This document shows, in pieces, positions 6,237 to 62,195 of a stretch of 64,000 bases of DNA. The DNA is from Acidicapsa acidisoli (GTDB lineage Bacteria > Acidobacteriota > Terriglobia > Terriglobales > Acidobacteriaceae). Numbering within the stretch: position 1 is the first letter of the stretch; every line of letters begins with the position of its first letter. The notes under the pieces are model-generated. The model worked only from the letters and a program-made list of their open reading frames with translations, was not told where the DNA came from and searched no databases. The stretch is from the NCBI RefSeq assembly GCF_025685625.1, contig NZ_JAGSYI010000001.1:1054001-1118000 (forward strand). The letters run 5' to 3'. A program made the translations under genes and the position numbers.

Positions 6237-6457
6237 AGAGGTCACTTCCGTAAAGGTTTTCTGTAATTGCCAATGGTACAGGATGGAGGTAGCCGCGGAG
6301 ACCCCTCGTTTCCCCGATGCTGTCTCGCGGAGCGCCCCGGATTTCTTAGCGTTCAATTGTGGACAGCCGATTTTGTGGATTTGCGGAATAATGAAGGGTC
6401 CGTATGGTCACTCGAATTTGCGTGGCCGGGCAAAAAATTCGATGAGAGGTTTCCACA

Positions 6458-7366: not shown

Positions 7367-7382
7367 AACCTCAGGGCTGAAT
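7355..7382. terminator. Bidirectional hairpin terminator between convergent genes
   Basis: A perfect 12-bp stem, ATTCAGCCCTGA and its complement, closes a 4-nt loop (AACC). It contains the stop codon of the lipoprotein gene and lies 18 bp from the stop of the convergent esterase gene. No long T-run follows on either strand, so termination strength is uncertain. Confidence 0.7.
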
Positions 7383-7400
7383 CTTGATGTCGCATTCGCG

Positions 7401-8339: not shown

Positions 8340-8487
8340 GGGAAAACCCCTTATCTAGTATCAGAGGCGATGATTGCAGCCGGGGGCGTGGCAAGGCAAG
8401 CTGCGGGGCTGGCTTACGCAAGGCAGGTCTGTTGGTATATCTTGACTTGCAGCCGCTGAAAGGTCTCGCCAAGGCGGCCGGGGGCGC

Positions 8488-42880: not shown

Positions 42881-45376
42881 CTATTGCACAGTCAGAGTGA
42901 CGTCTGTGGTATGGGTATTGGGCCCGCTTACAGCCGTTACGGTTACGGTGTAGGTCTGGGTGGCATGGCTGAAGAAACCACCTCCGCCGCACCCGCTCAT
43001 GGCGCCTAACGCCACGAGCGCAAGCAGCGCGATCAACATCCGCCCCGCTCGCGAAAGCCGTGCGGCAGCTCTGCGTGCCCTGCGGCCAAATGCCATTGGC
43101 AACAGCAGAAGCGCCAGGGCAGCACGGGTTGCCATTCCGCCGAGCGAAGGGGTCTTGTTTCGCTGGTATGCCAAATTACTGGCGCTTAGGGTCATGGTGC
43201 TGGTAGAGGCCGCAGCACCCGCCGGGATGGAAGCCGGCGCAAAGGTGGCCGTTACACCCGCAGGCAGTCCGCTGGCCGACAAGCTGACTGGATAGATGAA
43301 GGTCGGATTCGTCGGCGTCAATGTGATGGTGTAATTGGCGGATGCTGAGGGAAGTAGAGTTTGGGCCGCAGGCGACGGCGCGACAGTGAAGTCGGGTGAG
43401 ATCACGGTGCCGCCCAGCGTGGAGGAGTTGCTGGCGATGAAGTTGGTATCGCCGCCATACACAGCGACAATATTCAGAGCACCCACCGGCAGCGTGCTGA
43501 GGGTAAGCGTCGCTACGCCCCCACTCAGAGCAGTCGGAGTGGAACTCAGCATTGAGGCGCCGTTGAAGAAGCTGACCGTACCGGTTGGAGTACCGCTGGT
43601 GGTGGAAGCGACTTTAGCCGTGAGAGTGAATGCTGCACCGGCCACTGGCTTCGCAGTGCTGCCGGTGAGCGTAGTGATCGTAGGCGCCTGCGCAATTGCG
43701 ACAGCGCCCGATCCGGCACCGAGAGAAAGTGTGTAGTCAGCTGCAGCGGAACCCGTCAGCGCGATATCGATAGGATAGGTGCCCGGCGCGGATGTGATAG
43801 TGGCCAACGTCGAAAACGCAGCTGTAACTTTTCCGGAATCCTGCGCCAGCACGCCGCTCAGGGTGCCGGTAAGAGCGGGAATGGCTTGGCCGTAGAGGAG
43901 ATTCACCGCGTTGGCCACAGCAGTCAATGGGGCTGGCGTAACCACGAAGACGTAGACGCCGCTGGTGACGGCAGCGTTGTTTGTATCGCCGCCGTAGGAC
44001 GCGACAATGTAGTGTGTGCCTGCGGAGAGCTGGCTTGTGCTGATGGACGCTGAGTTGGCGGCAAGTGAAGCTGTGCCGATCACCGACGGGCTAGAACCCT
44101 CTCCGTCATAGAAGGTCACAGAGCCAGTTGCAGTGAGGCTACCATTGGAAAAGCTTGCGGTGATGCTGCCTGTGCCGTACATGGCAGTCATTGCGCCGCC
44201 GAGTGCAATGGATTCCGTCCCCGGCGGCGCCACCCCGGCGATGGTTTGAATTGCTCCGTTATTGACAGCGCGGATACGATTGTTCTCTGAGTCTGCAAAT
44301 GCCACCGAGTTTCCGATGACGGCCACAGCCCGGGGCGTATCCACCGACGCGTTGACTGCGAGACCAGTATCTCCGCTGAAGCCCTCGCTGCCATTGCCCG
44401 CAATCGTATTCACATTTCCGCCGGTAACGGTGCGGATTCGGTCGTTATCGCTGTCGGCAAAGTACACGTTTCCTGAGGCATCCACCGCTACGCCACGCGG
44501 ACCCGCCAGTGCGGCCGATGTTGCGGGACCGTCTGCGGTGAAGCCTTTGACACCTGTACCAGCCAGCGTTGAGATGATGCCGGTTGAGAATGTCACCATG
44601 CGCACGAGTTGGTTATGAGTGTCGCCGATATAGACATTGAAAGCGGCATCTACCGCAACGCCGCGGGGCGAATCCAGGCCTGCCGCTGTCGCCGGACCGT
44701 TATCGCCGGAGTAGGTCTGCTCGCCATCGCCCGCGATGGTCGAGATGTTCGTGCCGCTGATCTCGCGGACGCGGTGGTTATTCGTGTCTGCGATGTAAAT
44801 ATTGCCCTTAGAATCGACCGCGACCGCTGTCGGCAGATCGAGTGCGGCCGAGGTTGCTGCTCCACCGTCCCCTGAAAAGCCTGCAACGCCAGTGCCCGCG
44901 ATGGTAGTGATCACGCCACCGGTCACCTCACGGATGCGGTTGTTGTGAGTGTCGGCGATGTACAGATTGCTGGCGGAATCTACAGCGACGCCGACTGGTG
45001 AATCGAGCGACGCACTCGTGGCTGCTCCGTTGTCTCCATCAAAGCCCTGCTCCCCGCTCCCTGCAACGATGGTAAGCACACCGGCCAGATTGACTTCGCA
45101 AATCACGTTGTCGTCCGTGTCCGCAAAATAGAGATTGCCTGCCGCATCGAATGCTAATCCGCCAGGTTTGCTGAGCGGCACAGTTGTAGCTTCCGCGCCG
45201 CCTGTCAAAGCCCCGACCGAATTGGGATTCGCAGCGGAGCGGCCCACACGCGCGAGCGTCGCCTGCTGTGCCGCGTTTTGCGCCCAAGCCTGCCGAGGCG
45301 CAACCGTCAGCACGATCCCCGCCATCGCGATGAGCACTCCGAAGGTACGCAGCGTGCTTTTCAATTGGATGATCAT
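42881..45376 (-). CDS. NHL-repeat / Ig-like surface protein with C-terminal membrane and Cys-Gly motif
   Basis: An 831-residue protein with a signal peptide (ending AWAQ). Residues about 55-390 are six or more NHL repeats (GVAVDSASNLYIADTHNN; ITTIAGTGVAGFSGDGG), making a beta-propeller. Residues about 400-700 are Ig-like domains (Big_3 and related). Near the end come RRARRAAARLSRAGRMLI and LIALLALVALGAMSGCGG, a membrane segment followed by a Gly-rich Cys motif, then a last short beta domain. This ending recurs in acidobacterial surface proteins and may be a sorting signal. ATG 45376 is preferred to an upstream start. No enzyme activity is predicted; protein or glycan binding is likely. Confidence 0.85.
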   Translation of the reverse strand: MIIQLKSTLRTFGVLIAMAGIVLTVAPRQAWAQNAAQQATLARVGRSAANPNSVGALTGGAEATTVPLSKPGGLAFDAAGNLYFADTDDNVICEVNLAGVLTIVAGSGEQGFDGDNGAATSASLDSPVGVAVDSASNLYIADTHNNRIREVTGGVITTIAGTGVAGFSGDGGAATSAALDLPTAVAVDSKGNIYIADTNNHRVREISGTNISTIAGDGEQTYSGDNGPATAAGLDSPRGVAVDAAFNVYIGDTHNQLVRMVTFSTGIISTLAGTGVKGFTADGPATSAALAGPRGVAVDASGNVYFADSDNDRIRTVTGGNVNTIAGNGSEGFSGDTGLAVNASVDTPRAVAVIGNSVAFADSENNRIRAVNNGAIQTIAGVAPPGTESIALGGAMTAMYGTGSITASFSNGSLTATGSVTFYDGEGSSPSVIGTASLAANSASISTSQLSAGTHYIVASYGGDTNNAAVTSGVYVFVVTPAPLTAVANAVNLLYGQAIPALTGTLSGVLAQDSGKVTAAFSTLATITSAPGTYPIDIALTGSAAADYTLSLGAGSGAVAIAQAPTITTLTGSTAKPVAGAAFTLTAKVASTTSGTPTGTVSFFNGASMLSSTPTALSGGVATLTLSTLPVGALNIVAVYGGDTNFIASNSSTLGGTVISPDFTVAPSPAAQTLLPSASANYTITLTPTNPTFIYPVSLSASGLPAGVTATFAPASIPAGAAASTSTMTLSASNLAYQRNKTPSLGGMATRAALALLLLPMAFGRRARRAAARLSRAGRMLIALLALVALGAMSGCGGGGFFSHATQTYTVTVTAVSGPNTHTTDVTLTVQ

Positions 45377-45483
45377 CCCCGCGGTCTGCACCCGATTCAC
45401 CGTTCTCTCTCTCAAGTTCACTCGTTCAATGCCGCGCCATGCCGGCCCTGCATTGGTCTGCCCATAGCGCATAGAACAATCGC

Positions 45484-47244
45484 CTATGGAAGCTGCAAAG
45501 GTCCGGCAAGGCAGGAGACGGTCTTTGTCGAAGCCGACCCATACGCCTGTGTTTGCCCGTTATAGCCAGCCTGAAGCACTACGGTGCAAGTCGAGAACGC
45601 AGGCCAACCGAGCGCGGTTTGGGGATCAAATGCCGAAAGAGTCCAGCCCCCGTATGCGTTCGCATAGAAAGTGGTGCCGCCATAGTTCTCATGGATGTCA
45701 CATTCAGAGGATCCGAGCGCGTTCCCCGAATTCTCGATGCTATGGTCGGTTGTCCCCGCACCCACGGACATAATGATGTCTTTGGTCACGGTACCGTTTG
45801 TGACAAGCAGAGAATCGTCAGCGGTAGACCAAACCACCGTGCGATAGAAGGTGGGAAGCCCTCCACCACCACTGTTGCCGTCGTTCAAGTAAGCAGTTCC
45901 ACTGCAGCTTGATCCGTTCGACCACCAAATCTGCGAGGGCGGGAAGGTTCCGTCCACATTGACTGTGATGGCATACCCCGAGTTATAAATCGTCAAACTT
46001 CCGCCGTAGCCAGGCGCCTGCATCAACGTGCCCAGGGCGTTTCCATTCGCATCCTTGACTGTGAGGCCTGCGCCTGCGGGACCAGCGGGGCCCGGATTGC
46101 CTTGCGCCCCCATAAGGCCTTGCGGTCCTTGAGGACCAGTTGCACCAGTCGGTCCGGTTGCGCCAGTCGGTCCAGCGGAACCGGTGGCACCAGGAGCTCC
46201 AGTGGCGCCTTTCAAGGCGAGGACTGCCCAGGTCCCACCAGAGGACGATACATCGATCGCCGGATCGATCCCCTGGTTGGTAAACAATGCTATATAGCTG
46301 GACCCGTTTTCTGAGACTGCATCGCCGATCGCATAGATCGTGCTGCTAATCCAGGCATTCTTGAACGAAACGGGCGCACCCTGAGGTCCTGTCGCACCAG
46401 TTGCGCCGACTGGCCCGGTAATGCCCATCGGTCCAATTGGCCCAGCTGGACCCGTCGCTCCAGTTGCGCCGGTGAGTCCGATTGGACCCTGTGAACCCGT
46501 AGGCCCAATTGGTCCAACTGGTCCTGTTGCTCCAGTTGCACCGGTGAGTCCGATCGGACCCTGTGGACCGGTAGGCCCAATTGGCCCGGGAACACCTTGC
46601 GATCCTTGCAGGCCCTGGGCTCCTGTCGCACCGGTTGCTCCAGTAGCGCCCTGAATTCCCTGCGGACCCTGTGGGCCAATTGGCCCCTGCGAAATAACAG
46701 TGATATCCAAATGAGCCGAGTGGCTGGTCTCGTCATTTTCTTTGGAGTCGAAAACGATGTCCCCATTTCCGGAAGTCAGCGCGAGGCCGAAGTTTGACGC
46801 AGGGGTGGTCACCCAATCCTGTACGAGCGTCGTGACATCGACCACCACAAACTGCTCCGCCGACACCGGATTGAAAGTGGACGAACTCGAACCCAGAGGC
46901 GGCATTTTAGAGTAGTTCACGAGAGCTTCGCTCCATGCGCCGGTGAGCGGCTGAACGACGACCTGGCCTGGGGTATTGATCCGATTCACATACAGGGTCA
47001 GGGTTGCCTTACCAATCTGGCTGGCAGTCGTACCGGCAGGCAAAGACGACAGGTCAAACTGGATCAGCGCTGTACCGCTGTTGCTGACATACAGGTTCGA
47101 CAAACTACCGTAGTTCGTGGACGGATGAGCGCTGTTGACATACGCATCTCCCGTAACAACAGCTTCAGTGGCGTGCGCCGCGCCCACTGCAAAAATCGCC
47201 CACACTGCCGCTGCAATCGGCAAACCCCAGCCACGTTGGCTCAT
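45484..47244 (-). CDS. Secreted collagen-like protein with DNRLRE and CBM5/12-like domains
   Basis: A 586-residue protein with a signal peptide (ending AHAT). Residues about 27-185 form a DNRLRE-type beta-sandwich ([31 protein letters not shown]). Residues 187-290 and 345-392 are uninterrupted Gly-X-Y collagen repeats. Between them, residues 296-343 ([20 protein letters not shown], then SYIAL and GGTWAVLAL) match chitin-binding CBM5/12 modules. The C-terminal ~190 residues are a beta-rich domain of unknown type. The protein probably forms trimeric fibres on the cell surface that bind a glycan. It lies upstream of the NHL and barrel genes on the same strand. Confidence 0.88.
46069..46686 (-). 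repeat. Collagen Gly-X-Y coding repeats in two blocks
   Basis: Blocks at 46375-46686 and 46069-46212 encode Gly-X-Y triplets, split by the CBM5/12-like module. A nine-residue unit (GPIGLTGAT and variants) recurs, and nearly identical DNA copies of about 70-80 bp lie next to each other near 46440-46590, so the length could vary by recombination. Confidence 0.8.
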
Positions 47245-50097: not shown

Positions 50098-53000
50098 TTA
50101 AAAATCCACGCGTGCGGCGAACTGAAACGCGCGTGGGCCGCCTGAGCCGAAAAAACCACCGGCCGTGCTTACCGCAGAATAAAAGTTCGTTTGCACAGCC
50201 TGTGCGGGCGCCGACGGGGGACCCGGTTGTGCCGGAACATAAGGGCTGATGGTGATATTGCGGCCAGAGAAGTTAGCAGCGCTCGATCCTCGGATATTGG
50301 TTTCGTTGAACATGTTAAAGCCCTCGCCCATCAGGCTGAGCCTGGCACGTTCGCCGAGGCTGATTTCCTTTCTCAATCGCAAATCGAGAGAACTGAAGGG
50401 GCTGAAAAAATTGATACCTGCAGGAACCGTTTGCAACTGTCCGCCTGCCAGGCAGGGGAAGGCAGCCGGACAAGCAGGCAGCGAATTCCATCGATTGATG
50501 ATGGCGTTCAACTGATTGCTGTTGCTGACTTCCCTTCCGATCGCGTTGCGAGGCAGCAGCGGTAAGCGAGAGCCGCTGGCGCCCGCGCTGTTCGCTGTTC
50601 CAGGAAGGAAGGTATCAGCCGGTACACCTGAGCCGAAAGTATAGATCGGCGCCAGTGAGAAGCGCCAGGGTAATTGGGCTTCTCCGTACAAGGTTAGGCG
50701 ATGGCGCTCGTCGGTCACGGCGTATCCCTTTTCGAGGCGAAGATCGTTGATGCCTTCGACCAGGTCAACTTGCTCGTCTGCCGACGCTGTGAGTTGGTCG
50801 TCATCGGAATAATCAAAGGTCTTGGAGAGCGTGTAGCTGACGTTGTACTGATAACTGATGGGGCCGAGCTTTGTAGGGTGATGCTCAATGCTAGCAATCA
50901 GGCCGTCGTACCAGGACTTGGCCTGGGATTGCAGCAGCGTGATGTTATCTGAGATTCCGCTGAGCGGGTCTGTGATCACGCAAGGCTGGTTATCGCCGGG
51001 GCATGCAATGTAAGGCGAATTCGATGTGGTGTCGCGCAGGAGATGGCCGATGATTTGGCGCGATGCGAAAACATGTAGACCGTCAGCGGAGATGAGCCAG
51101 TTGCTGCCGACTTGTTGCTGCAGGCCAAGTGAGAATTGCTGAAAGAGCGGATGATGCGCGTCCGGCCCCATCGCCAAAATGCCGATGCCGCCTGTCTGGT
51201 GTGGGCCGCTAAACGCGCTCGCGAGTGTTGGAGTACCCGGCACAAAGCTCGATCCCGGTGCGAAACACAAGCCGAGACTGGGCGGTGCCGGTATAAAAGG
51301 ATTCGAGCAGCTTGATCCGGCATATTGCGTCACGGTAAGAGCGCGGTCGTTCTGTACCAACTCTTCGGCCCCTGCCTCAAGAATGATCCGATCGTAGTAG
51401 ATGCCGTATCCCCCTCGAAGCAGAGTCTTGCCCTTCCCCAGCGGATCATAAACAAAGCCAACACGTGGAGCGAAGTCTTTCTTATCAGGAGTCTTCTTGA
51501 GATCGATGATATTTGCCATCCAGACGCAAGGCTTGGTGGGCGTGACGGTGAGGCTGGGGCAGGGATCATGCTCGCTGGAGTTTCCGGTGAGGTTAGAGTC
51601 ATATTCCCAGCGCAAACCAAGATTTAATGTGAGCCTTGGATGGATGCGCCAATCATCTTGAACATAGCCCGCAACGTAGTCGTCATAGACCTTTGGGATG
51701 GGTACAGGAACGACGGGCGCAGTGCTATGGAGAGCGACCGCGAGCGGGATGTCGAGGTCGTTGATAACCCCATCGCCGTTGAGATCGGCGAAGCCGAAGT
51801 CCGAGGTGAGAATCACGGTACCGGTGCCGAATACGTTGATCTCACCGTTCGCCTTATAGTGTTGAAACTCGCCCCCGAGGTGCAGCGTGTGCTTACCCAG
51901 AGACCAGGTGAGTCCATCGCGAACCTGATAACGATTCAAATGCGTGGCCTGAGGTAGATTGAAGTTTTCCCCATCGGCCAGGTCTGGAAAGATGAGTTCG
52001 TTGGTGAGATCGAGCGACGCTGGATCTGTCGCGGGCTTGTCGTCCGGATATGGCGGAATGTCGTTATAGAAATTGTCGAAATGAAACGAAAGATCGTTGA
52101 CCTTCGTAGGGGAAAGAACTGAGTTGAAGTTAGCGACGGCAGAGTTGAATCGGTTGAGGGAGTTCTGTCGCTCCGCAGCCGAGAACGCCGGCGCGCTGGA
52201 CCCTGGCGATGCTCCGGAAGTATCGGTGGAGCGATTGAATGAGTAGCGGATCATCAGGCTGTTGTGTTCGCTGATTTGCTGATCTAAGCGGGTAGACAAG
52301 AGTGCGTCGCGCAGCGGCGCCGGGGCCGCGCTATTGACGACTTGCTGCGTTGCGAAGTCGCGAGTGCCGGTTTGCAACGACGCATTCTGGTCGCGGAACT
52401 CAAAAGATCCGAAGACCCAGGAACGATCTCGTTGGATTGGTCCGCCAATCGATCCACCGGTTTGCTCGCGATCAAATGGCGGTGTGGGTAAGCTCCGATT
52501 AAAGGTTGCGGGGAGGGCCTGTAGATTGCGATTGCGCTCAAAGAGAAACGCCGAGCCATGGAAGCTATTTGTGCCGCTTTTGGTGACGATGTTCACGATG
52601 CTGTTTCCGGATCTGCCTACCTCCGCGGTGAATCGGCCGGTGGCGATCTGAAATTCCTGCACGGAGTCTTCAGGAAAGTTGGCGAGGGTTCCACCGACGA
52701 CTTCGTCGTTGTTATCGCCTCCGTCGACGGTGATGTTGCCGCCGCGGCCAAAGCCGCCAGCTGAACTTACTTCAAGGGTATTGGTCTTGGTGGGATCAAA
52801 CGTGGGCGCCGGCCGGTTGCCTGGCACCAAATAAGCGAGTTCGAGAAAATTTCTGCCGTTCAGAGGAATGCTTTCAATGGTCCTGGAGGTAATCTGGCCT
52901 TGAATCATCGATTGTGTGAGATCGAGAATTGCTGTCGATGCGTTGACATCCACTGTGGCGCCTGTGCTGGCGATCTGCAGTTTTGCATCGACCGTCGTGG

Positions 53001-53343
53001 TACGACCCGCTTCGATCGTCACAGCCTTGAACTCGCTCGCCGCGAAGCCCGGGGCCTCGATCTTGAGGTCATAGATTCCCGCAGGCAAGTCGGGCAAAAC
53101 ATAAAGACCGCTGGAGTTGGTGACAGTGTCGCGGGTCGTGCCCTGGGCCGCGCTTACTACTGTCACGTGTGCACCGACCAGAACGGCGTCCCTGGGGTCC
53201 GTGACAAGACCATTCACGCTGCCGTCCGGAACCTGTGCGGTAAGCATAGTGACTGCAAAAATGAAGAATCCGGCCAGAACAAAACGCAAACCGCGACCTC
53301 GCAACATCCTCGAACTCCAATGGGATAGAGATAAGCCGTTCAT
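50098..53343 (-). CDS. TonB-dependent receptor with carboxypeptidase-regulatory-like domain
   Basis: A 1081-residue outer-membrane protein. After a signal segment (residues 15-40) comes a carboxypeptidase-regulatory-like beta domain ([20 protein letters not shown], then [20 protein letters not shown]). The plug follows ([30 protein letters not shown]), then the 22-strand barrel ending in FQFAARVDF with a terminal Phe. This is the OmpA-related/Cna-B-plug type very abundant in Acidobacteria. A loop contains [12 protein letters not shown], which looks like a calcium-binding EF-hand or dockerin loop (near 51755-51800). ATG 53343 is chosen; another at 53307 is possible. Likely substrate: an oligosaccharide or ester-linked compound, judged only from the esterase in its operon. 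Confidence 0.92.
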   Translation of the reverse strand: [1081 protein letters not shown]

Positions 53344-53496
53344 CAGATTCCGTTCGCCGGGTTGGAACGGAAACACGGCGAAAAATGTGATACGGCAGTG
53401 ATCGTGCAACTCTATCCAATCGCCACCTTGCTGTCCTCATTCCTGTGATGGGGAGAAATCCCAATCGAAAGGTAGAGATCAGATAGGTTGAGATCC

Positions 53497-53595
53497 ATGG
53501 ACTTTGAGCAACTCATCGTGCTCGCGAATGCGACCGCTGACTCGATCTCCCATCAGCGGTCGCGGCGCGTTCTTCAACTCGGGACTTATATTTAG
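53497..53595 (+). pseudogene. Possible N-terminal scrap of a LysR-type regulator
   Basis: A 32-codon frame starts MDFEQLIVLANA, much like the first residues of LysR-type regulators, and then loses all similarity at a hairpin (53530-53563). It overlaps the end of the DUF417 gene. It is too short to be certain and could be chance. Confidence 0.3.
53530..53563 (-). terminator. Hairpin after the four-gene operon
   Basis: A perfect 11-bp stem (GCGACCGCTGA and its complement) with a 12-nt loop lies 29 bp past the stop of the DUF417 gene. It probably ends the sigma-54 operon. There is no T-run. Confidence 0.6.
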
Positions 53596-54158
53596 CTTCT
53601 GTTCTCGGAATAGATGGCGCTCTTACCGAAATAGCTGATCAGGTAAAACGATACTCCAAGTGATATGACATCCTTGAAAAGGAACAGGCCGATAAAACTC
53701 ATATACCTGATCCCGTGAACGGTAGTGGTTGAACCTGGAGTGGTTATAAGCATGGTGCTGGTGGTGAAGAACATGACTGACGCGATGAGTCCGCCCAGGA
53801 TACCGGCTTTCGGTCTCAGATATCCGGCGAGAATCAATATTGCGGCAGTGATCTCGGTAAGCCCGATCAAATCAGAGCCTACATAAGGGCCGAACAATCT
53901 AAAGTGCCAACTGACCAGTGGACTGTTGGAAACCAGAGGAATTATGCCTTCGGCTCCTGGAGCGGTCATCTTGTAAGATCCTGCCCAGAGAAGCATCACA
54001 ATCATGCCGATGCTGGTGACCAGGAAAGGAATTTTGCGATGGTCTATCCATGCAGCCAGTCTGGTCAAGCTACTTTTTGCTGTTATTGAGGAGCCAGTTG
54101 AGGAAACGAGGTTTTGTTGCTCCGCATGAACTTCCTGTGCGAACTGGGATTGACTCAT
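53592..54158 (-). CDS. DUF417 (YkgB/RclC-like) inner-membrane protein
   Basis: A 188-residue protein with four predicted membrane helices. The segment SYKMTAPGAEGIIPLVSNSP at about residue 60, followed by LVSWHFRLFGPYVGSDLIG, is the hallmark of the DUF417 family, which includes E. coli RclC, linked to resistance to reactive chlorine. The N-terminal ~35 residues are a hydrophilic extension. AAGGAG lies 7 bp before the ATG. It is the last gene of an operon with two alpha/beta hydrolases and an SDR, 87 bp after the SDR. A role in stress from reactive chlorine or other electrophiles is inferred only from the family. Confidence 0.85.
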   Translation of the reverse strand: MSQSQFAQEVHAEQQNLVSSTGSSITAKSSLTRLAAWIDHRKIPFLVTSIGMIVMLLWAGSYKMTAPGAEGIIPLVSNSPLVSWHFRLFGPYVGSDLIGLTEITAAILILAGYLRPKAGILGGLIASVMFFTTSTMLITTPGSTTTVHGIRYMSFIGLFLFKDVISLGVSFYLISYFGKSAIYSENRS

Positions 54159-54245
54159 GATTATTTCTCCTTACTAAGTGCGAGATGATCGCGTATGGCG
54201 ATCTGTTGTGATCCCCGCAAATACTCGGGCTGAAATGGCCGCGCA

Positions 54246-55019
54246 TCAGATGCCTTTCACTTCCCCGCCGTCCATGCGCAGGGAAGCTCCCGTCATCCAC
54301 TTCGCAGCGGGCGACACCAGAAAGGCCATTAAGTCCGCAATCTCCTCGGGCTTGCCGAAGCGAGCGATGCCTGTCTCCTCGGGAAATTTCTTCGTCGCCT
54401 CCTCAACGGTCAGGTTGTGTGCCGGCGCCCACTTTTTGAAAAAGGACTCCCGACGACCGGTCATCACAGCACCGGGAACAACGCTGTTGACCTGCACTCC
54501 ATCCTGGATGCCCTGCTCTGCGAAGGCCTTTGCAATTGCGATGATCGCCGCATTGATGGCGGCTACCGCAGCGAAGCCAGGCTTTGGATCGAGAGCAGCG
54601 CTTCCCGAGATCAGAACGACAGATCCGCTCGATGCCTTCAACGCGTCCCAGGCTCGAACGGTCAGGCGACGTGCGCCATGGAGCTTGAGCGCCAGGCCAT
54701 CGTCCCACTGCGCATCCGTCATCTCGAACAAATCGATCTGAGGCACCGCGCCTGCGATATTCAGCAGAGCATCGATTCTGCCAAAGTGCCCGAGTGCTCC
54801 TTGCACGAGAATGTCAGCCGACGCAGGTTCACGGAGATCGAGCGCGTAGGCAAGTGATTCGGCACCGGCGAAGTTTACTGCGGTTGCGGTCTTTTCTAAC
54901 TCATCCTTATTTCGCGCCGCAAGCACCACGGCGGAGAAATCGCGCGCCAGCCGTATTGCGGTGGCACGGCCAATTCCCTGGCTTGCGCCGGTAACGATAG
55001 CGACAGAATCGTTTTTCAT
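54246..55019 (-). CDS. Short-chain dehydrogenase-like protein lacking the catalytic Tyr and Lys
   Basis: A 257-residue SDR fold with an intact cofactor motif (VTGASQGIGRATA), the NNAG-like NIAGAV and a Ser in VLISGSAA. At the position of the YxxxK signature the sequence reads AAVAAINAAIIA: aligned to the usual AAYSASKAAL, Tyr is replaced by Val and Lys by Asn. The protein should bind NAD(P) but is unlikely to be a normal dehydrogenase. The C-terminal SLRMDGGEVKGI is as in active relatives. It lies between an alpha/beta hydrolase gene with an altered catalytic Ser and the DUF417 gene in the same operon. Confidence 0.88.
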   Translation of the reverse strand: MKNDSVAIVTGASQGIGRATAIRLARDFSAVVLAARNKDELEKTATAVNFAGAESLAYALDLREPASADILVQGALGHFGRIDALLNIAGAVPQIDLFEMTDAQWDDGLALKLHGARRLTVRAWDALKASSGSVVLISGSAALDPKPGFAAVAAINAAIIAIAKAFAEQGIQDGVQVNSVVPGAVMTGRRESFFKKWAPAHNLTVEEATKKFPEETGIARFGKPEEIADLMAFLVSPAAKWMTGASLRMDGGEVKGI

Positions 55020-55080
55020 ATGCTCCTTATGCGCGGTCCCAACGCACGATGCGATCCGTCTGAGAACGCATCGGATGTCT

Positions 55081-55812
55081 TCACTTGCAGACAGGTTCGC
55101 GCAGCTTGGCTTGCCTTGAATGCGTTTCGCGGACAGCAGCCAGTATCACGTCGACTACGAGATCCGAAGCCGAATACATCGGAGTGTGGTCAACGTTATG
55201 CGACCGAATTGTCGCTCCCATCCGCTCAGCCATGAAGCGCTGCGTTTCCGGAAGGATCATGCGATCCTCCTCGGCGAGGAGATACCAGGATGGTGTCCCC
55301 TTCCATGCGGGTGCTGGAGCCTTTTCCTGAATACACTGCACCGCAATCGGCCTCTGCACCGCGGCCATGACTACAAGCTGGTCTGGTGAGGCCCTGTGCG
55401 CGACAGCGCGAACAAAACCCTCTTCCGGCATCCAGATCACTCCATGGTCATCCGGTTGAAGATGAGGAGCCTCCGGATGCGGCGCGGTGCGATAGAAGAC
55501 ATCCGCAACCGTTTCGCCTTCATCCGGCGCTAATGCGGCAACGTAGACGAGCGACTTCACCCGATCGTTGTGCGCCGCAGCAATCACCGCACCAGCATAC
55601 GCATGGCCAACAAGAATGACTGGGCCAGTGGTTCTGTCGATCACGCGCTGAAGAGCGGAGGCGTCATCGGTGAGCGATGTAAGCGGTATCGGCGCCGTTG
55701 TGACGTGCAATCCATGGCGCCGCAGGGGCAGAATGATATTGCTCCAGCATGATCCGTCGGCCCACGCACCGTGAACCAAAACAACATGGCCAGTCTCAAG
55801 ACGAGCGTTCAT
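55081..55812 (-). CDS. Alpha/beta-hydrolase-fold protein with Ala at the nucleophile position
   Basis: A 243-residue cytoplasmic protein related to small esterases such as salicylate-ester hydrolases. VVLVHGAWADGSCW at the start, and LAEEDRMILPETQRF with DHTPMYS near the end, supply oxyanion, acid and His positions. The nucleophile elbow reads ILVGHAYAGAVI: Ala replaces Ser of the standard GHSxG. Some natural homologues appear to share this change, so it may define a non-hydrolytic or differently acting branch. It overlaps the start of the next hydrolase (55809) by 4 bp (ATGA), so the two are translationally coupled. Confidence 0.87.
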   Translation of the reverse strand: MNARLETGHVVLVHGAWADGSCWSNIILPLRRHGLHVTTAPIPLTSLTDDASALQRVIDRTTGPVILVGHAYAGAVIAAAHNDRVKSLVYVAALAPDEGETVADVFYRTAPHPEAPHLQPDDHGVIWMPEEGFVRAVAHRASPDQLVVMAAVQRPIAVQCIQEKAPAPAWKGTPSWYLLAEEDRMILPETQRFMAERMGATIRSHNVDHTPMYSASDLVVDVILAAVRETHSRQAKLREPVCK

Positions 55813-56759
55813 CGCGACAGCTCCTTCTCGCGTCTGTCAGAGACGCCTCTCGCATCGAGGAAGTCTTTGATCGCATCAGCAATCTCGACTGCATGTGTCT
55901 CTAAGGCAAAGTGCCCTGTATCCAGGAAGCGGACTTGCGCATTTGGAATGTCCTTGTGGAATGCTTCTGCACCCGCAGGAATGAAGAAGGGATCATTCTT
56001 GCCCCAGATCGCCAGCAGCGGCGGCTTCGATTTCCGAAAATACTCCTGAAACTTTGGATAAAGCTTCACATTCGATGCGTAATCGAGGAACAGATCGAGC
56101 TGAATTTCTTTGTTGCCGGGACGCTCCATCAGGGCCGTATCCAGTGTGTATCCTTCAGGAGCAACCGCCTCCGGATTTGTTACTCCGTGCGTGTACTGCC
56201 AGCGAGTGGTTTCCAGGGTCAGAATGTTCTGCCGGAGCACGTCTCGGTTTTCTTCTGTCGGCTCGGACCAATATTTGCGAATCGGCCCCCACGCGTCGCC
56301 GAGGCCTTCTTCATAAGCGTTGCCGTTTTGCGAGACGATGGCTGTCACTCGTTCCGGGTGGCGCATCCCCAGACGCAAGCCGGTGGGAGCACCGTAGTCG
56401 AAGATGTATATTACGTAACGGTCGAGGCCGAGTGCTTCGGTGAAGGCCTCGATCGTGCCCGCCAGAGCGTCGAATGAATAGATATAGTTTCGCTTTGCCG
56501 GCACCTCCGTGAATCCAAAACCGGGCAGGTCTGGCGCGATCACCCTGTATTCGTCTGCGAGGCGAGGAATCAGCTCACGGAACATGAAGGATGACGTAGG
56601 GAACCCATGAAGCAAGAGCAACACAGGTGCTGCCGCATCGCCGGCTACCCGATAGAAGATCTCGACTCCGTCCGCCATCACTCTGTGTATCGACGTCGCA
56701 GGCACTTGGGACTGGGTTTTCGCTGGGCTGTTTGCATGTCCTGACAGGACCGGGTTCAT
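55809..56759 (-). CDS. Alpha/beta hydrolase with Asp nucleophile (haloalkane dehalogenase / epoxide hydrolase type)
   Basis: A 316-residue cytoplasmic hydrolase. LLLLHGFPTSSFMFRELIP gives the oxyanion loop; the nucleophile elbow YIFDYGAPTG puts Asp where esterases have Ser, as in haloalkane dehalogenases and epoxide hydrolases; IWGKNDPFF and DTGHFALETH hold the acid and His. DLPGFGFTE is also typical. The start at 56759 has AGGAGG upstream. It is the first gene of an operon of four, and a sigma-54-type promoter lies 60 bp before it. The substrate, possibly a halogenated or epoxide compound, cannot be read from sequence. Confidence 0.9.
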   Translation of the reverse strand: MNPVLSGHANSPAKTQSQVPATSIHRVMADGVEIFYRVAGDAAAPVLLLLHGFPTSSFMFRELIPRLADEYRVIAPDLPGFGFTEVPAKRNYIYSFDALAGTIEAFTEALGLDRYVIYIFDYGAPTGLRLGMRHPERVTAIVSQNGNAYEEGLGDAWGPIRKYWSEPTEENRDVLRQNILTLETTRWQYTHGVTNPEAVAPEGYTLDTALMERPGNKEIQLDLFLDYASNVKLYPKFQEYFRKSKPPLLAIWGKNDPFFIPAGAEAFHKDIPNAQVRFLDTGHFALETHAVEIADAIKDFLDARGVSDRREKELSR

Positions 56760-57087
56760 AACAACTCCTCCTGATTTTGGCGCGTTTTACAAAGCGTCGT
56801 GAACGCCACAGCTCTTATTGCAATCGCGATACCAGGAATATCGCCTGCCTCTTCCATCCCTGTTGCGGAGATAAGTTGTTCTGTACCTGCATGATCACTT
56901 CACGCCGGAACCAGTAGCACTCAGCCACGCACTGACAGATGCGAGACGGACCTCCGACATTGACGGGAATCAGTCACGAGCTTCGTCGCGAAATGCAGCG
57001 GGCGGATGCCTGATGACGACGAGATGCTCGTTTGATCATTGCTGCATGAAAAACGGGGGAGGATGGATGCCGAGGTTGGAAGCGGAG
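56760..57087. promoter_or_regulatory. Promoter region of the hydrolase-SDR-DUF417 operon
   Basis: This 328-bp region lies between the sigma-54 activator gene and the operon, both on the minus strand. It holds the -24/-12 promoter (56819-56834) and must contain the activator binding sites, which I could not identify by eye. Confidence 0.55.
56819..56834 (-). promoter_or_regulatory. Sigma-54 (-24/-12) promoter
   Basis: On the minus strand, TGGTATCGCGATTGCA fits TGGCACG-N4-TTGCA: TGG and TTGCA are exact, with GG and GC separated by 10 bp. It is 60 bp from the start codon of the first operon gene. A second, weaker GG-N10-GC site (TGGCGTTCACGACGC) lies nearer the gene. Confidence 0.7.
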
Positions 57088-59250
57088 CTAGACGGCGGGC
57101 ACTCGGCCGTCGACCGCGCTGGTTTCTCGGGAGGAGGCGGGACGAACGATCCGATGCTTCTGCATCTTGTAAACCAGAGAGGTGCGTTTCATCCCGAGCC
57201 GCTGCGCCGCGCCGTTCCGTCCTCCGACGATCCAGTTGCTCAACTCAAGAGCGCGGATAATGTGATCCCGCTCCAGTTCGTCAAGACCTGTCATGGGAAG
57301 ATTTGATTTGCCTGAAGCGCTGAACTGCTCGAGTTCGGCAATAGGTGCCTGTAACAACGTACGAGGAGACAGGATTACTGCACGTTCGATGAAGTTTCGC
57401 AGTTCGCGAACATTTCCCGGCCAGCGATATCGCACAAGTGCTTCCATCGTTTCGGCGGGAATCGTATCGATCTTCTTATTCATTCGCTGTGCATAGAAGG
57501 CAGTGAAGTGGCGGACCAGTTTCGGAATGTCCTCGGTGCGCTCCCGCAAGGCGGGAATATTGATTGGGAACACCTTGAGCCGGTAGTAAAGGTCGTCTCG
57601 AAACGCAGCCTGCTTCACCATCGCTGGTAGATCACGGTGCGTAGCTGCAATGAGACGAACATCCACCTTGCGCGTGCGGTTGCTGCCGAGCCTCTCAAAC
57701 TCCTGCTCCTGCAGGACGCGCAGCAGCTTTGCCTGAAGCTCTAGCGGAATGTCACCAACTTCGTCCAGGAAGAGCGTGCCTTTATGCGCAAGTTCGAAGC
57801 GTCCCGTCTTCTGCGCTATCGCGCCAGTGAACGCTCCCTTTTCATGCCCGAACAGCTCGCTTTCAAGGAGTCCCAGTGGGATAGCGGCGCAATTCAATTT
57901 GACAAAGGCCCGATCTCGGCGGCCGCTTAGATTATGAATGGCGCGCGCAATCAATTCTTTGCCCGTACCCGTCTCACCCAAAATCAGCACGCTCGAATCG
58001 GTAGGAGCCACGACGGATACCAGATGCAGGGCATCCTTTAGGACAGGGCTACCGCCGACGATTTCCCCAAACTCAGCCCGGATTTCCTCTTCGAGATACA
58101 GTCTTTGTTTCGTTTCTTTGTCTCGATCCTTTGTCGCCCTTTCGTACTCCAACGTGTTCTCTACTGCAATCGCTATCTGGCGAGCCACCTGCTCAAGCAG
58201 GATGACGTCGTTTTTCTCAAAAGGATTGTTGGAACGCCTGCAAAGCATCAGAACGCCAACCACGCGATCTCGGCTCACAAGCGGAAGATAGCACCCCACG
58301 CTGAGGCCTTCCTCGATCACTCGCTCATAAATAAACTGGCCGTCAGGGTTCCCATAAATTTCAGGATCCTCGCGGACCTGTTCGAAACTATCGATGCGGA
58401 TGGTCTTGCCCTTCCGCAATACCTGACCCGAGATCGAACTATTCATCGACACCAACGATCCCTCTCGGTAGGGTCCTCTCGCGTCTGGGTTGTGCAAGAC
58501 AGTGACACGTAACTCACCGCTCTCGATGTCGGGTAGCAACAAGGCGGACACGTCACATTGCATTGTCCTGAATAGATTCGTCGAAAGCCCTTCAACCACT
58601 TGCCGGAGGTCCAACCTGGATGTCACGCTGCTAGTGATTTCCAGAAGCAATTGCAAGCGATCGCGTTCATACCGTAACTTTTCTTCATTCAGGTGACGCT
58701 CTATCGCGATTCCCGCAATGTAGCTGGCATTCTCGATCATCTGCAGATCGGCCGCGGAAGGGCTGCGCACCTCACGATAGTGGATGGCAAAGGTTCCCAG
58801 CACCTTGCCGTCGCTCGTGAATAAAGGCCGCGACCACACTGCACGAATTCCGAAGGGCAAAAGCAGGTGACGATAATGTTCCCAGACAGGATCATTGAGA
58901 ATGTCGGTCACATATACCGGTTCCCGCCGAAAGACTGCCGTGCCGCAGGATCCTCCTTGCGGACCAATCAGCATGGACCCTACATGCGTGATGAATCCGG
59001 GAAGACCAGGAGCTGCCGCGCAGTAGAGCTGCCTCTCATAATCGCTGGGAAGCCAGATGGTGCACAACGTCCCGTCGCCGCGTGACTCTACCAGTTGCGC
59101 AATGATAGTGAGCACTTCCTCCAAGGGTGCTCCTGCAAGAATTAATCGCAGGATCTTGAGCACCGATTCGGAGGAAAACAGGCCGAACTGATTCTGCGTC
59201 TCTCTGTCGCTCGACATTCGATGTGCATCGGATTGCTCGATAGACGCCAT
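57088..59250 (-). CDS. Sigma-54-dependent transcriptional activator with two GAF domains
   Basis: A 720-residue cytoplasmic enhancer-binding protein. Two GAF sensor domains occupy about residues 30-185 and 205-370. The AAA+ domain has Walker A GETGTGKE, the sigma-54 contact loop GAFTGA (in HEKGAFTGAIAQ), Walker B GTLFLDEVGD and an arginine-finger segment (RLKVFPINIPALRER). A Fis-type helix-turn-helix closes the protein (NGAAQRLGMKRTSLVYKMQK). The ATG is preceded by AAAGGAGAG. The layout resembles FhlA-type regulators, so a small molecule or redox signal bound by GAF is likely. The operon directly downstream carries a sigma-54 promoter and is the probable target. Confidence 0.94.
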   Translation of the reverse strand: MASIEQSDAHRMSSDRETQNQFGLFSSESVLKILRLILAGAPLEEVLTIIAQLVESRGDGTLCTIWLPSDYERQLYCAAAPGLPGFITHVGSMLIGPQGGSCGTAVFRREPVYVTDILNDPVWEHYRHLLLPFGIRAVWSRPLFTSDGKVLGTFAIHYREVRSPSAADLQMIENASYIAGIAIERHLNEEKLRYERDRLQLLLEITSSVTSRLDLRQVVEGLSTNLFRTMQCDVSALLLPDIESGELRVTVLHNPDARGPYREGSLVSMNSSISGQVLRKGKTIRIDSFEQVREDPEIYGNPDGQFIYERVIEEGLSVGCYLPLVSRDRVVGVLMLCRRSNNPFEKNDVILLEQVARQIAIAVENTLEYERATKDRDKETKQRLYLEEEIRAEFGEIVGGSPVLKDALHLVSVVAPTDSSVLILGETGTGKELIARAIHNLSGRRDRAFVKLNCAAIPLGLLESELFGHEKGAFTGAIAQKTGRFELAHKGTLFLDEVGDIPLELQAKLLRVLQEQEFERLGSNRTRKVDVRLIAATHRDLPAMVKQAAFRDDLYYRLKVFPINIPALRERTEDIPKLVRHFTAFYAQRMNKKIDTIPAETMEALVRYRWPGNVRELRNFIERAVILSPRTLLQAPIAELEQFSASGKSNLPMTGLDELERDHIIRALELSNWIVGGRNGAAQRLGMKRTSLVYKMQKHRIVRPASSRETSAVDGRVPAV

Positions 59251-59615
59251 CGGCTCTCCTTTTCTAACGTGACTCCGTAGAAGGAGAATATGCCATTAAC
59301 CCACGGGGCCTAAACGTAGTGTGGGATTTCACGATGAAGGTTGTCAATGCATCAAAATCGAGGGGGATATCCTGTGGATTTCTGTCCGCTAAGCGTCTGG
59401 TTTGACAGCCAGTGGCCCCTCTCCCGGTGCTCACCGGCATTTTAGGCGTGATTCGGAGAGGGGAGAAGTTGGATGGAAGCGGCAAAGCAGACGATCAGCA
59501 CGCATACGGCGAGGCATCTTACCGGCAAGGAGGGCGGGGCTGCCGGATGCGCAAACCGGCAGCCTGAGAATCCGCAGTATGCGAATTTCGTCCTTTCACA
59601 GCTCCCTTTCCCGTT
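59251..59615. other. Intergenic region with a hairpin
   Basis: 365 bp without a supported gene between the propeller/phosphoesterase gene and the sigma-54 activator, both on the minus strand. The perfect 9-bp hairpin at 59538-59564 (GGCTGCCGG arms) is the main feature and may terminate the upstream gene. Confidence 0.5.
59538..59564 (-). terminator. Hairpin after the propeller/phosphoesterase gene
   Basis: Arms GGCTGCCGG and CCGGCAGCC pair perfectly over a 9-nt loop, 52 bp past the stop codon. No T-run follows on the minus strand. Confidence 0.5.
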
Positions 59616-62195
59616 TCAATCTTTGTCTTCGGTTGAGTCTCCCGCATCGACCAGAGGACGGAAACGATGCACTGGTGAAGGCATCGGCGTGTTCACTCCT
59701 TTCACGCTCTGCCAGATCACCTTGTTCAGGGCATGCATTGGCGCGCGATCCAGATCGTTGAAGTCCATCTTCATGCTCTCTGCCGCGCCAGGGGACTGTT
59801 TGGTGTTTTTGGCGTTTACGTCAATCTTCGGGGCGATCACGGAGAAGGGAGTGATCTCCGGAACCGCTCCGAAGGAAGCGTAGAGAGGCATCGCCGCCGC
59901 GTCGTATTGGCTCATCGGCGGCATGCCGAGGAGCAGTTCGATCGAGCGCACGAACGAACTGGTGGAGTAGAGCGTGCTGTCGACGATACCGCGCTTGACG
60001 TAGGGGCTGATTACCAGTCCTACGGTGCGCCGGGCGTCGACGTGATCTGGGCCGTCTTGGGCATCGTCTTCGATGAGGAAGATGGCCGTGTTGGGCCAGT
60101 AGCGGCTATGACTTACTGCATCCACGAGTTGGCCGATGGCGTAATCGTTATTGGCCACCATCGCCTCGGGAGTAAACGCGCCAGGCTGAGTTCCCTTGGT
60201 GTGGTCTTCGGGCATGCTCATGACCACAAAGTTGGGAAGACGCAGGTTGGGATCTTCGCTGTCGTAGTTGTTCTCGTACTGCTTGAATTCGCGTAGAAAC
60301 ACGGCAATGTTATCCGTATCCCTTTGCCGGGAGCCGAGATACTCCTTTGAGACATGTCCGACGAGCCCGGATGCGCCAGGAGCCGCGTCCATCGTGGTGC
60401 CGGTGCTGGCCCGGGCCGCGTACTCGCCATAGGAGCGATAGGTGAGGCCTTTGCGCTGCGCTACATCCCACAGGTGCCCTGCCGATGGCACATAGGCTCG
60501 CGAAGGCAAGGCATCGCTTCTTCCTGCGTAGGTTGGCGGCCAGAAGCGTTCGTTGAAGTCGGTCGCATAGGCTGCGTCCGACCAGGAATGGCCATCGACG
60601 CTGACCTCGCCGTCGCAATAGAGGTTGTCCAAGATCACATACTGCTTCGCCAGCGCGTGCTGGTTGGGCGTCACCTGTTCTCCAAAGATAGTGAGCGCCG
60701 GATCGCCGTTTGCGTTCTTCAGGTCTCCGAAGACCTGATCATAGGTGCGGTTTTCTTTGATGATGTAGATTACGTGCTTGATCTCTGTGGACACGCCAAC
60801 AGCCTGCGGAATGATGGTCGGCGTCTGTGGCGGTCTGGCCTCGGCCAGCATCGAATCGGTGTACGGCGTGTTATTGACCACCATCTTTGTCCAACGCGGA
60901 AGGTCCTTTTGAAGCGTGGCTACATTGAGAACTTCGACACTGCTCTTCTGCACTGTTTTTACTGACTCGTCTCCATTCCAGATGGAGGCCAGAGGACTGC
61001 CCGGTCCTTTGCGGTCAGGATGTCCCGACTCGCCCTTGCTGTTGCCAATGTAGAGTTCACTGCCGTTGTGGGTGAGCGCAAGCGCCGATGGATACCAGCC
61101 TGTAGGAATGAATCCAACCACTGAGCTATGCGCCCGGTTGGAGATGCGGATCACGGTGATCGAGTTATTGTCCGCATTGGCTACATAGAGTAACTTACGC
61201 ACGTTGTCGATCTCCGCGGCATCCGGCGTCGAGCCTTCCGGCCCAAGCGGGGTCAAGGTCGTGGACAGCCGCTCGATCACTTGCAGAGTACGCGTGTCGA
61301 TTACATGAATCGTGTTGTCGTTGGAGCAGACGACAAACAGCCTTCCGTCGGTCGACAACTTCATGTCGTTGGGATTCATGCCAACGCGAAGAGTTCGGAT
61401 GACTTTGTTGGTCGCGGTATCGATCACGCTTACCGATTCGCTGGCCCAGTTAGAGACAAACAACTTGCTGCCATCCGGCGTCAACACTAACTGGTATGGG
61501 TTGATCTCCACGGGAATGCGGGTGAGGATCTGCCGCGTTTTCGCATCGAAGACTACTACATTGCTTGGCCCCGTCCCGGTGCCTCGGTTGGCGGCATAAA
61601 GATAGTGCTTGCCGGAAAGATATGCGACGCCCGACCACCACACCTTCTTGGGATCGATCGTTTCCACCATCTGATTGGTTGGCTTATCGCTTAGACGGCC
61701 ATCGCTGTAGCTGAACTCATAGATCGGCGCTGCGCTTTGCGCTATTGCCTTCGCGCCGGTCGCATTCCCGCCTGAGACATAGAGAGTGGAGCCATCCGGT
61801 GACCAGGTCATACCCAACCAAGTGGTCTTGAGTTCAATATGCTGGATGACCTTCTGTGTCTTCACGTCCATCACATCGATTCCGTGCGGCTGGTAACCGG
61901 CGTGGCTCGCGACGACGACCCTTCCATCCTTCGAGACCAGCATGTTCAGCACCATGTCGTTCAGTTCCGCGATTGGCTTGCCCGCTGGGGTGATCCGCCA
62001 TCCGTTAGGCAAATCGAATCCGCCCTGGATGAAATGCGGTAACTGCTTTGTAGACTGTCCGATAGTACGCGGCGAATCATCTGAAACAGCGGGAGGTGCG
62101 GTGTTCTCATTGGTCTGAGCATGAACTGGCATCGCGCCCAACAGACCCAGGGCAATGAAGCCTGCGAAGCCGCAGAACTTGGCAGTAACAGACAT
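59616..62195 (-). CDS. Bifunctional YncE-like beta-propeller / phosphoesterase family protein
   Basis: An 859-residue periplasmic or surface protein with a signal peptide (ending VHAQT). Residues about 70-430 form a YncE-like seven-bladed propeller (VSKDGRVVVASHAGYQPHGI; LVLTPDGSKLFVSNWASESV; LYVANADNNSITVI). Residues about 475-760 are an alkaline-phosphatase-superfamily phosphoesterase domain (HVIYIIKENRTYDQVFGD, then SVDGHSWSDAAYATDFNE; SMPEDHTKGT; LIEDDAQDGPDHVDARRTV) with the metal-binding Asp/His set. Phospholipase C or phosphonatase-type activity is possible. The propeller may bind the substrate or a partner. This two-domain design is common in Acidobacteria and Planctomycetes. Confidence 0.9.
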   Translation of the reverse strand: MSVTAKFCGFAGFIALGLLGAMPVHAQTNENTAPPAVSDDSPRTIGQSTKQLPHFIQGGFDLPNGWRITPAGKPIAELNDMVLNMLVSKDGRVVVASHAGYQPHGIDVMDVKTQKVIQHIELKTTWLGMTWSPDGSTLYVSGGNATGAKAIAQSAAPIYEFSYSDGRLSDKPTNQMVETIDPKKVWWSGVAYLSGKHYLYAANRGTGTGPSNVVVFDAKTRQILTRIPVEINPYQLVLTPDGSKLFVSNWASESVSVIDTATNKVIRTLRVGMNPNDMKLSTDGRLFVVCSNDNTIHVIDTRTLQVIERLSTTLTPLGPEGSTPDAAEIDNVRKLLYVANADNNSITVIRISNRAHSSVVGFIPTGWYPSALALTHNGSELYIGNSKGESGHPDRKGPGSPLASIWNGDESVKTVQKSSVEVLNVATLQKDLPRWTKMVVNNTPYTDSMLAEARPPQTPTIIPQAVGVSTEIKHVIYIIKENRTYDQVFGDLKNANGDPALTIFGEQVTPNQHALAKQYVILDNLYCDGEVSVDGHSWSDAAYATDFNERFWPPTYAGRSDALPSRAYVPSAGHLWDVAQRKGLTYRSYGEYAARASTGTTMDAAPGASGLVGHVSKEYLGSRQRDTDNIAVFLREFKQYENNYDSEDPNLRLPNFVVMSMPEDHTKGTQPGAFTPEAMVANNDYAIGQLVDAVSHSRYWPNTAIFLIEDDAQDGPDHVDARRTVGLVISPYVKRGIVDSTLYSTSSFVRSIELLLGMPPMSQYDAAAMPLYASFGAVPEITPFSVIAPKIDVNAKNTKQSPGAAESMKMDFNDLDRAPMHALNKVIWQSVKGVNTPMPSPVHRFRPLVDAGDSTEDKD

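Follow-up and report, generated by a model that had tools for sequence, protein, structure and literature searches.

A stretch of 64,000 nucleotides from the 7.1 Mb genome of Acidicapsa acidisoli (hereafter, the window) carries on its reverse strand the gene of a sigma-54 activator followed by an operon of four genes, hyd1-hyd2-SDR-DUF417, and comparison with related genomes indicates that the activator very probably drives this operon from an enhancer and a sigma-54 promoter located between them, whatever the signal may be. The predicted one-component activator, a bacterial enhancer-binding protein (bEBP) of 720 amino acids, is encoded at 57088-59250. Behind it lie the enhancer, or upstream activating sequence (56978-56930), a -24/-12 promoter match, TGGTATCGCGATTGCA (56834-56819), recognised by its consensus score and by the spacing in relatives, and an AGGAGG Shine-Dalgarno sequence (56772-56767) that precedes the ATG of hyd1 at 56759. 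A preliminary description of this DNA had already placed an activator with a GAFTGA motif and two GAF domains just upstream of the operon; gene content, order and positions were all borne out by open reading frames, Pfam and NCBIfam matches and motif checks. Its central proposal, that the activator drives the operon from a sigma-54 promoter, finds strong support in comparative genomics, through synteny, the enhancer, the fixed spacing and co-occurrence. The enhancer was absent from that description and is new in this analysis.

The enhancer is a 49-bp block, CGTGACTGATTCCCGTCAATGTCGGAGGTCCGTCTCGCATCTGTCAGTG, common to the loci in which the activator and hyd1 occur together and located behind the activator stop codon, with the locus L062 carrying it only in part. 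Its consensus consists of two GAC-N8-GTC inverted repeats and a further GTC half-site 11 bp on. A model of the block, R1, was built from 13 training loci (the window included and L062 left out) and contains no promoter sequence. With this model, the enhancer of the window scores 40.6 bits, and its centre lies 119 bp from the GG of the -24 box. It is the one strong site found in its genome, where the next independent site reaches 15.6 bits (E=0.1; 150 of the 2,278 first-look candidates scored). A large regulon in this genome was consequently dropped as a possibility; in this species the switch seems to serve one operon, and weaker sites may escape this search.

The evidence that carries most weight is the distance between enhancer and promoter in relatives. 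In 12 of the 13 training loci, the best promoter-like site was picked without knowledge of the enhancer, and the interval from the enhancer centre to the -24 box was 115-121 bp in 11 of them and 107 bp in one; the thirteenth, L042, has a weak promoter site (score 7) at 118 bp. R1 then found 38 further distinct, out-of-sample enhancer sites in relatives, and a GG-N10-GC site is present 104-124 bp downstream at 36 of them with a score of at least 7 (at 33 with a score of at least 8). When training sites are included, this holds for 49 of 51 sites at a score of at least 7, compared with 0-7 of 50 sites (0-5 of 37 among the new ones) for each of 13 other 21-bp windows used as a control and computed without the site L080:7544. 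A separate ungapped scan of 37 regions, some overlapping the earlier loci, likewise gave 49 of 51 sites with a promoter at 100-127 bp, the exceptions being L226 (genome G325) and one marginal site, in L224. Two positions are conserved without being required, the initial T of the -24 box (48/49) and the T before the -12 GC (49/49); both count towards the score used to pick sites. The best-site distances fall into two groups, 106-107 and 115-122 bp, about one helical turn apart, as would be expected if a looped activator must face the polymerase. Between sites, the spacer is 0.28-0.30 identical, like the flanks (0.25-0.28), while the enhancer reaches 0.60, so that shared ancestry does not explain the fixed spacing. 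Related genomes supply sites that are in part dependent on one another; once those with similar spacers are merged, 38 clusters are left, 35 of which have a promoter score of at least 8 in the member looked at. The GG-N10-GC core of the predicted sigma-54 promoter is thus conserved at orthologous positions.

The second line of evidence is the company that the activator keeps. We sought hyd1 in 120 related genomes and in 84,980 species genomes (the best 80 among the matches listed), and most of the relatives among these matches are acidobacteria, with Edaphobacter and Silvibacterium near the top. A gene-order search, which the preliminary description had proposed as a check, places an activator ortholog upstream of hyd1 and on the same strand in 13 of the 99 hyd1 loci examined, some of which are one place fetched twice (e.g., L043/L072 and L049/L103). 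Within the stretch examined, hyd2 is present in 11 of these 13 loci, SDR in nine and DUF417 in four. Activator and enhancer also occur together at the level of genomes. Among 61 near relatives, scanned with stricter filters and at most 99 candidates scored per genome, two have an activator ortholog, and the same two have an enhancer above 30 bits, the best score in the other 59 being 17.5 bits. In a sample of 399 genomes of the class, activator orthologs were found in 21, own genome included, and an enhancer at E<=0.001 is present in 20 of 22 activator-bearing genomes (20 from the class sample plus G054 and G004; training sites had come from G054, G004, G103 and, to judge by identical scores, G312). 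In the remaining two, a weak enhancer adjoins the activator, and the promoter follows at 122 bp (G390) or 117 bp (G321). The enhancer follows the activator gene at no more than about 300 bp in 20 of 23 activator-bearing genomes, own included. A thin phylum-wide sample of 297 genomes gives no sign of the activator outside the class, the ortholog threshold being reached by the own genome only.

The genes of the operon are not always accompanied by this activator. Among the 99 loci are 11 proteobacterial ones with hyd1, hyd2 and SDR (L095, L109, L110, L112, L117, L120, L125, L130, L132, L133 and L138, mostly from Paraburkholderia, Caballeronia and Bradyrhizobium; hyd2 is on the other strand in L110 and L133), and the activator was found in none of the 11. 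Relatives of hyd1 are also present in 269 of 72,556 plasmid records. Five such plasmid regions were read: in two, of which one is acidobacterial, DUF417 and AraC regulators are close by, in the other three there are Lrp/AsnC, LysR, ABATE/CGNR or TetR genes, and a sigma-54 activator is annotated in none of the five. The link to sigma-54 is therefore one arrangement among several, and even acidobacteria do not all have it.

The activator itself has the features expected of its class. Pfam assigns it two GAF domains (residues 42-184 and 215-365), a Sigma54_activat domain (397-563; 241.6 bits), an AAA lid and a Fis-type helix-turn-helix (HTH_8; 30.1 bits, cut-off 22). A Walker A motif, GETGTGKE, starts at 425 and GAFTGA at 472, the latter present in 32 of 32 ortholog rows, in which at least one genome, G103, is represented by two rows (L042 and L180). 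L063 has an activator of only 62% identity; it was counted among the 13 syntenic loci and grouped with the paralogs in the alignment. By its AAA+ domain, Walker A, GAFTGA and Fis-type helix-turn-helix, together with the conserved candidate enhancer, the protein is classified as an NtrC-type bEBP. The own genome has 26 matches to it, mostly to the AAA+ domain, and the recognition-helix region, RTSLxY(R/K)M, is common to most ortholog rows and different in all seven own-genome paralogs aligned. The best NCBIfam match is FhlA, which also has GAFTGA and the layout GAF-GAF-AAA+-Fis; however, the score of 523.7 bits is below the curated equivalog cut-off of 830, and the protein is likewise below the cut-offs of NifA (395.3 vs 528.85 bits) and NorR (358.2 vs 476 bits). 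The enhancers differ too: the sites that the available passages of PMC6615313 describe as similar to those of FhlA and NifA are inverted repeats, TGT and ACA, separated by a spacer of 10-12 bp, in contrast to the GAC-N8-GTC repeats found here. As for sigma-54, the genome has one match to its DNA-binding domain (PF04552, 187.5 bits), by which the gene was identified; two text patterns for the RpoN-box string, searched in the sigma-54 locus, gave no match.

From these elements, we propose that the activator, as a one-component enhancer-binding protein, specifically serves the adjoining operon. Its Fis-type helix-turn-helix would bind the palindrome array at 56978-56930, and its GAF domains would sense a signal, upon which the AAA+ ring would assemble. 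The DNA would then loop over about 119 bp, allowing GAFTGA to contact the sigma-54 RNA polymerase waiting at 56834-56819; the promoter would open, and hyd1-hyd2-SDR-DUF417 would be transcribed, with the products of the operon repairing or removing a reactive product. In relatives, the same activator would act on one to a few target operons, adding genes for the ergothioneine synthase EgtB, DM13 proteins, an RclA-like flavin reductase or an aquaporin. Binding of the activator, DNA looping and sigma-54 dependence are inferred from sequence.

Some observations weigh against this circuit, and two of its rivals draw on them. The promoter sequence is modest when taken alone, as TGGTATCGCGATTGCA matches 9 of the 12 specified positions of TGGCACG-N4-TTGCW, the sigma-54 consensus used for scoring. 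The consensus published for Desulfovibrio, as it appears in the passages available of PMC4641369, is tGGcacg / tTGCt. The preliminary description had spoken of a “near-consensus” promoter some 60 bp before the operon: the place is right (the ATG of hyd1 is 59 nt downstream), but the wording is too generous, since 27 GG-N10-GC sites score at least 9 on the two strands of the window, and shuffling the 420 bp behind the activator 300 times gives as good a score in 6% of cases (p=0.06). The match is too common to count as stand-alone evidence and was dropped as such. Furthermore, two of the 51 enhancer sites have no GG-N10-GC site at the usual spacing, namely L204/L226 (G325) and the accessory site L080:7544 (20.3 bits); some promoter sites match only 7 of 12 positions (L042, L061, L062, L197 and L202); and the weak site L179 entered the count in the orientation with the lower score (15.1 vs 17.4 bits), the other being without a promoter (one orientation was kept per palindrome, for L179 the one matching the gene direction). 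On the scope of the count, L065:26-74 (13.4 bits) was excluded for its score and has a GG-N10-GC site at 123 bp, and the 51 sites drew on 28 loci in the second part of the count, some sites of activator-bearing genomes falling outside it, several of which turn up in the separate ungapped scan. Finally, G431, G262 and G270 have no enhancer beside the activator, their sites lying elsewhere, which points to action at a distance or, for the fragmented assemblies G262 and G270, to contig breaks.

If the -24/-12 match were a product of chance, the operon would be read by a sigma-70 polymerase, and the abundance of equally good matches in the window and in shuffled sequence is what speaks for this. 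Nevertheless, the promoter is raised beyond chance by the conserved enhancer and by the fixed distance between the two in relatives, kept at nearly all sites across a spacer that is not conserved, and sigma-70-like sites in 53300-59700 are not above chance (2 vs 3.4 expected); we thus regard this explanation as highly improbable. Only slightly less improbable is that a different regulator binds the enhancer and that the neighbouring activator is a bystander. The binding is indeed an inference, and the three genomes with the enhancer away from the activator gene would fit such an arrangement, but a bystander would hardly be expected to coincide with the strong enhancer in exactly two of 61 relatives, to be accompanied by it in 20 of 22 activator-bearing genomes and to have it right behind its gene in 20 of 23. 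The circuit in which the activator drives the operon through the enhancer and a sigma-54 promoter is the reading that we retain. A natural test of action at a distance is offered by Silvibacterium bohemicum: its activator locus, L080, and a second hyd1-hyd2 locus equipped with enhancer and promoter, L068, are separated by about 88 kb of contig NZ_LBHJ01000020.1. In L080 itself, tandem enhancer-like blocks (7544-7582 and 7697-7743) lie between activator and operon, and only the nearer one is at the usual promoter distance, the accessory site being 150 bp upstream of the main one.

The genes behind the enhancer in relatives bear on the signal. Within 500 bp of the enhancer centre, the first gene to be recognised (49 promoter-bearing sites in 37 regions, window included) is hyd1 at 19 sites, EgtB at seven, DM13 at five, DUF417 at four, an RclA-like gene at three, and a lactonase, a glyoxalase, an aquaporin and DUF427 at one each; at the other seven, no gene of the reference set lies within 500 bp. 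These seven include an ECF sigma factor (L221, G295), another alpha/beta hydrolase (L231, G054) and, with a predicted start that overlaps the site, an aquaporin (L060); DoxX is also found among the enhancer targets of relatives. The one EgtB scanned with NCBIfam is above the curated cut-off (505 vs 360 bits), and four RclA-like proteins are below theirs (343-362 vs 740 bits). The presence of EgtB, RclA-like, DM13, DUF417 and aquaporin genes behind the enhancer makes oxidant or reactive-electrophile stress the most likely signal. The conserved cysteines of the GAF domains, Cys63, Cys77 and Cys102 in the first (28 of 28 ortholog rows covering them) and Cys320 in the second (29 of 29), are candidate sensors, and we give about even chances to such a stress being the signal and to these cysteines being its sensor. 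On the other side, Cys320 also occurs in four of the five paralog rows covering it and the paralogs do not align over the first GAF domain, so that these comparisons do not single the cysteines out as special to this activator. In addition, the regulon of A. acidisoli itself is one operon without EgtB, DM13 or RclA-like genes, and the redox reading consequently leans on relatives. The inducer suggested in the preliminary description, a halogenated or oxidising compound, thus survives only in its second half and as a plausible guess, the first half having the active-site residues of hyd1 against it.

Three further arrangements were observed around enhancer sites. In L221 (G295; 1-582 and 733-779), the ECF sigma factor gene stands behind an enhancer and -24/-12 pair, which suggests a cascade from sigma-54 to ECF in this genome. 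In L218 (G431; 6071-8693), a CysD-like/CysNC sulfate-assimilation pair stands behind a 25.9-bit site outside the 49-site count; this pair would link the regulon to sulfur supply, and at the usual spacing no GG-N10-GC site scores above 8, a weak promoter match. In L042, L061, L064, L067 and L070, paired genes of DM13, an electron-transfer domain, lie between the enhancer/promoter and hyd1.

The residues of the operon's proteins bear on what it might do (residue counts for hyd1, hyd2 and SDR include the window, and a few loci were fetched twice). hyd1 (55809-56759), identified as an alpha/beta hydrolase by Pfam, alignment and a structure model (pLDDT 92.3), has an intact triad, with Asp121 in 93 of 93 sequences, Asp256 in 92 of 92 readable ones and His283 in 93 of 93. 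In haloalkane dehalogenases, which the model resembles, an Asn after HG and a Trp after the nucleophile stabilise the halide. Although hyd1 shares the fold and the Asp nucleophile of DhaA, it has Phe53 and Tyr122 (HGFP, DYG) where the DhaA-derived HaloTag has Asn and Trp (HGNP, DWG) in alignments; dehalogenation by hyd1 is therefore unlikely, and its reading as a haloalkane dehalogenase was rejected. Its HGFP motif is reminiscent of epoxide hydrolases, in which HGxP is accompanied by a pair of ring-opening Tyr residues in the cap; Pro54, the proline of this motif, is found in 90 of 93 sequences. hyd2 (55081-55812), whose start overlaps hyd1 by 4 bp, has the alpha/beta hydrolase fold of SABP2/PytH according to Pfam, alignment and a structure model (pLDDT 93.8), but the nucleophile Ser in GxSxG, typical of serine hydrolases of this type, is replaced by Ala71 in 29 of 32 sequences (Ser in three), while Asp183 and His209 are kept in all 32. 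The SDR (54246-55019; Pfam and alignment), 61 bp further on, retains the glycine-rich nucleotide-binding motif TGASxGIG and Ser138, and has Val152 and Asn156 in place of the catalytic Tyr and Lys of the classical YxxxK pair in 28 of 28 sequences. Both hyd2 and the SDR had been called altered before; this was correct, and the altered sites are kept in acidobacteria and proteobacteria alike. After a gap of 87 bp, the last gene (53592-54158) codes for a DUF417 membrane protein, a distant relative of RclC (83.3 bits for the family, cut-off 27; 61.1 bits for RclC, short of the curated 275).

The main rival to a stress response keeps the circuit and makes it catabolic: the GAF domains would bind a small organic molecule, such as an ester, an epoxide or a halide, which hyd1, hyd2 and the SDR would degrade. 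Sigma-54 activators induced by phenols or alkenes provide a model for this, and two hydrolase-fold proteins and an SDR do resemble a short degradation pathway; the zinc alcohol dehydrogenase, aldolase and LLM monooxygenase genes in the clusters of some relatives, as well as the occurrence of hyd1 relatives on plasmids, point in the same direction. However, hyd2 and the SDR are without their canonical catalytic residues, hyd1 is without the halide-binding ones, and the same enhancer precedes EgtB, DM13, RclA-like, DUF417 and aquaporin genes, for which catabolism is no obvious role, which makes a catabolic role unlikely in our judgement, if still worth serious consideration. Coming back to oxidants and electrophiles, the enzymes of the operon are probably protective. 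A more specific version, in which an acidobacterial sigma-54 defence regulon against such compounds couples ergothioneine synthesis to a unit of hyd1 as an active Asp hydrolase and two conserved partners, a Ser-less hyd2 and an SDR without its Tyr and Lys, which would have lost canonical catalysis and would either join hyd1 in a complex or perform an undescribed reaction, is speculative and, taken as a whole, rather doubtful.

Known systems share parts of this arrangement. Reconstructions of sigma-54 regulons exist for Clostridiales (PMC6615313) and Desulfovibrio (PMC4641369), and the passages available describe, as here, activators that often adjoin their targets and a -24/-12 consensus; enhancers are mostly 100-250 bp upstream of the promoter in the former, and the largest fraction is within 100 nt of it in the latter. 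By contrast, those regulons belong to other phyla, and their targets, as far as these passages go, are other genes. RclR, the regulator of the rcl system of E. coli (RclABC), is an AraC-type protein. That regulon resembles the one described here in joining a DUF417 protein to an RclA-like flavin reductase (the latter in relatives), and loss of its RclC, of the DUF417 family, makes cells sensitive to HOSCN by a mechanism given as unknown in the passages available (PMC12096828). It differs in that its regulator is no sigma-54 activator, and here neither the DUF417 protein nor the four RclA-like proteins scanned reach equivalog scores. The type of circuit is thus well known, and this set of activator, enhancer and regulon is new as far as the literature searched goes: no account of it, nor of any acidobacterial sigma-54 regulon, was found among the papers listed, few subscription papers being included. 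Its interest lies in that activator, enhancer, promoter and targets can be read together, with a fixed and helically phased geometry, making the whole circuit testable by a reporter. It also makes it possible to approach, through their regulation, three widespread families that carry no annotation beyond “alpha/beta hydrolase”, “SDR” and “DUF417”, and in related bacteria the switch is found again in front of antioxidant genes.

Other genes of the window were noted in passing. Upstream of the activator, on the same strand and separated by 365 bp, is a gene for a protein with a beta-propeller and a phosphoesterase (59616-62195, reverse strand). Downstream of the operon, a frame of 1103 amino acids (50098-53409, reverse strand) resembles by eye an outer-membrane protein of the TonB-receptor type. 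Further on, a protein with collagen-like triple-helix repeats and a CBM96 module (45484-47244, reverse strand) adjoins a large protein with NHL and Ig-like repeats (42881-45472).

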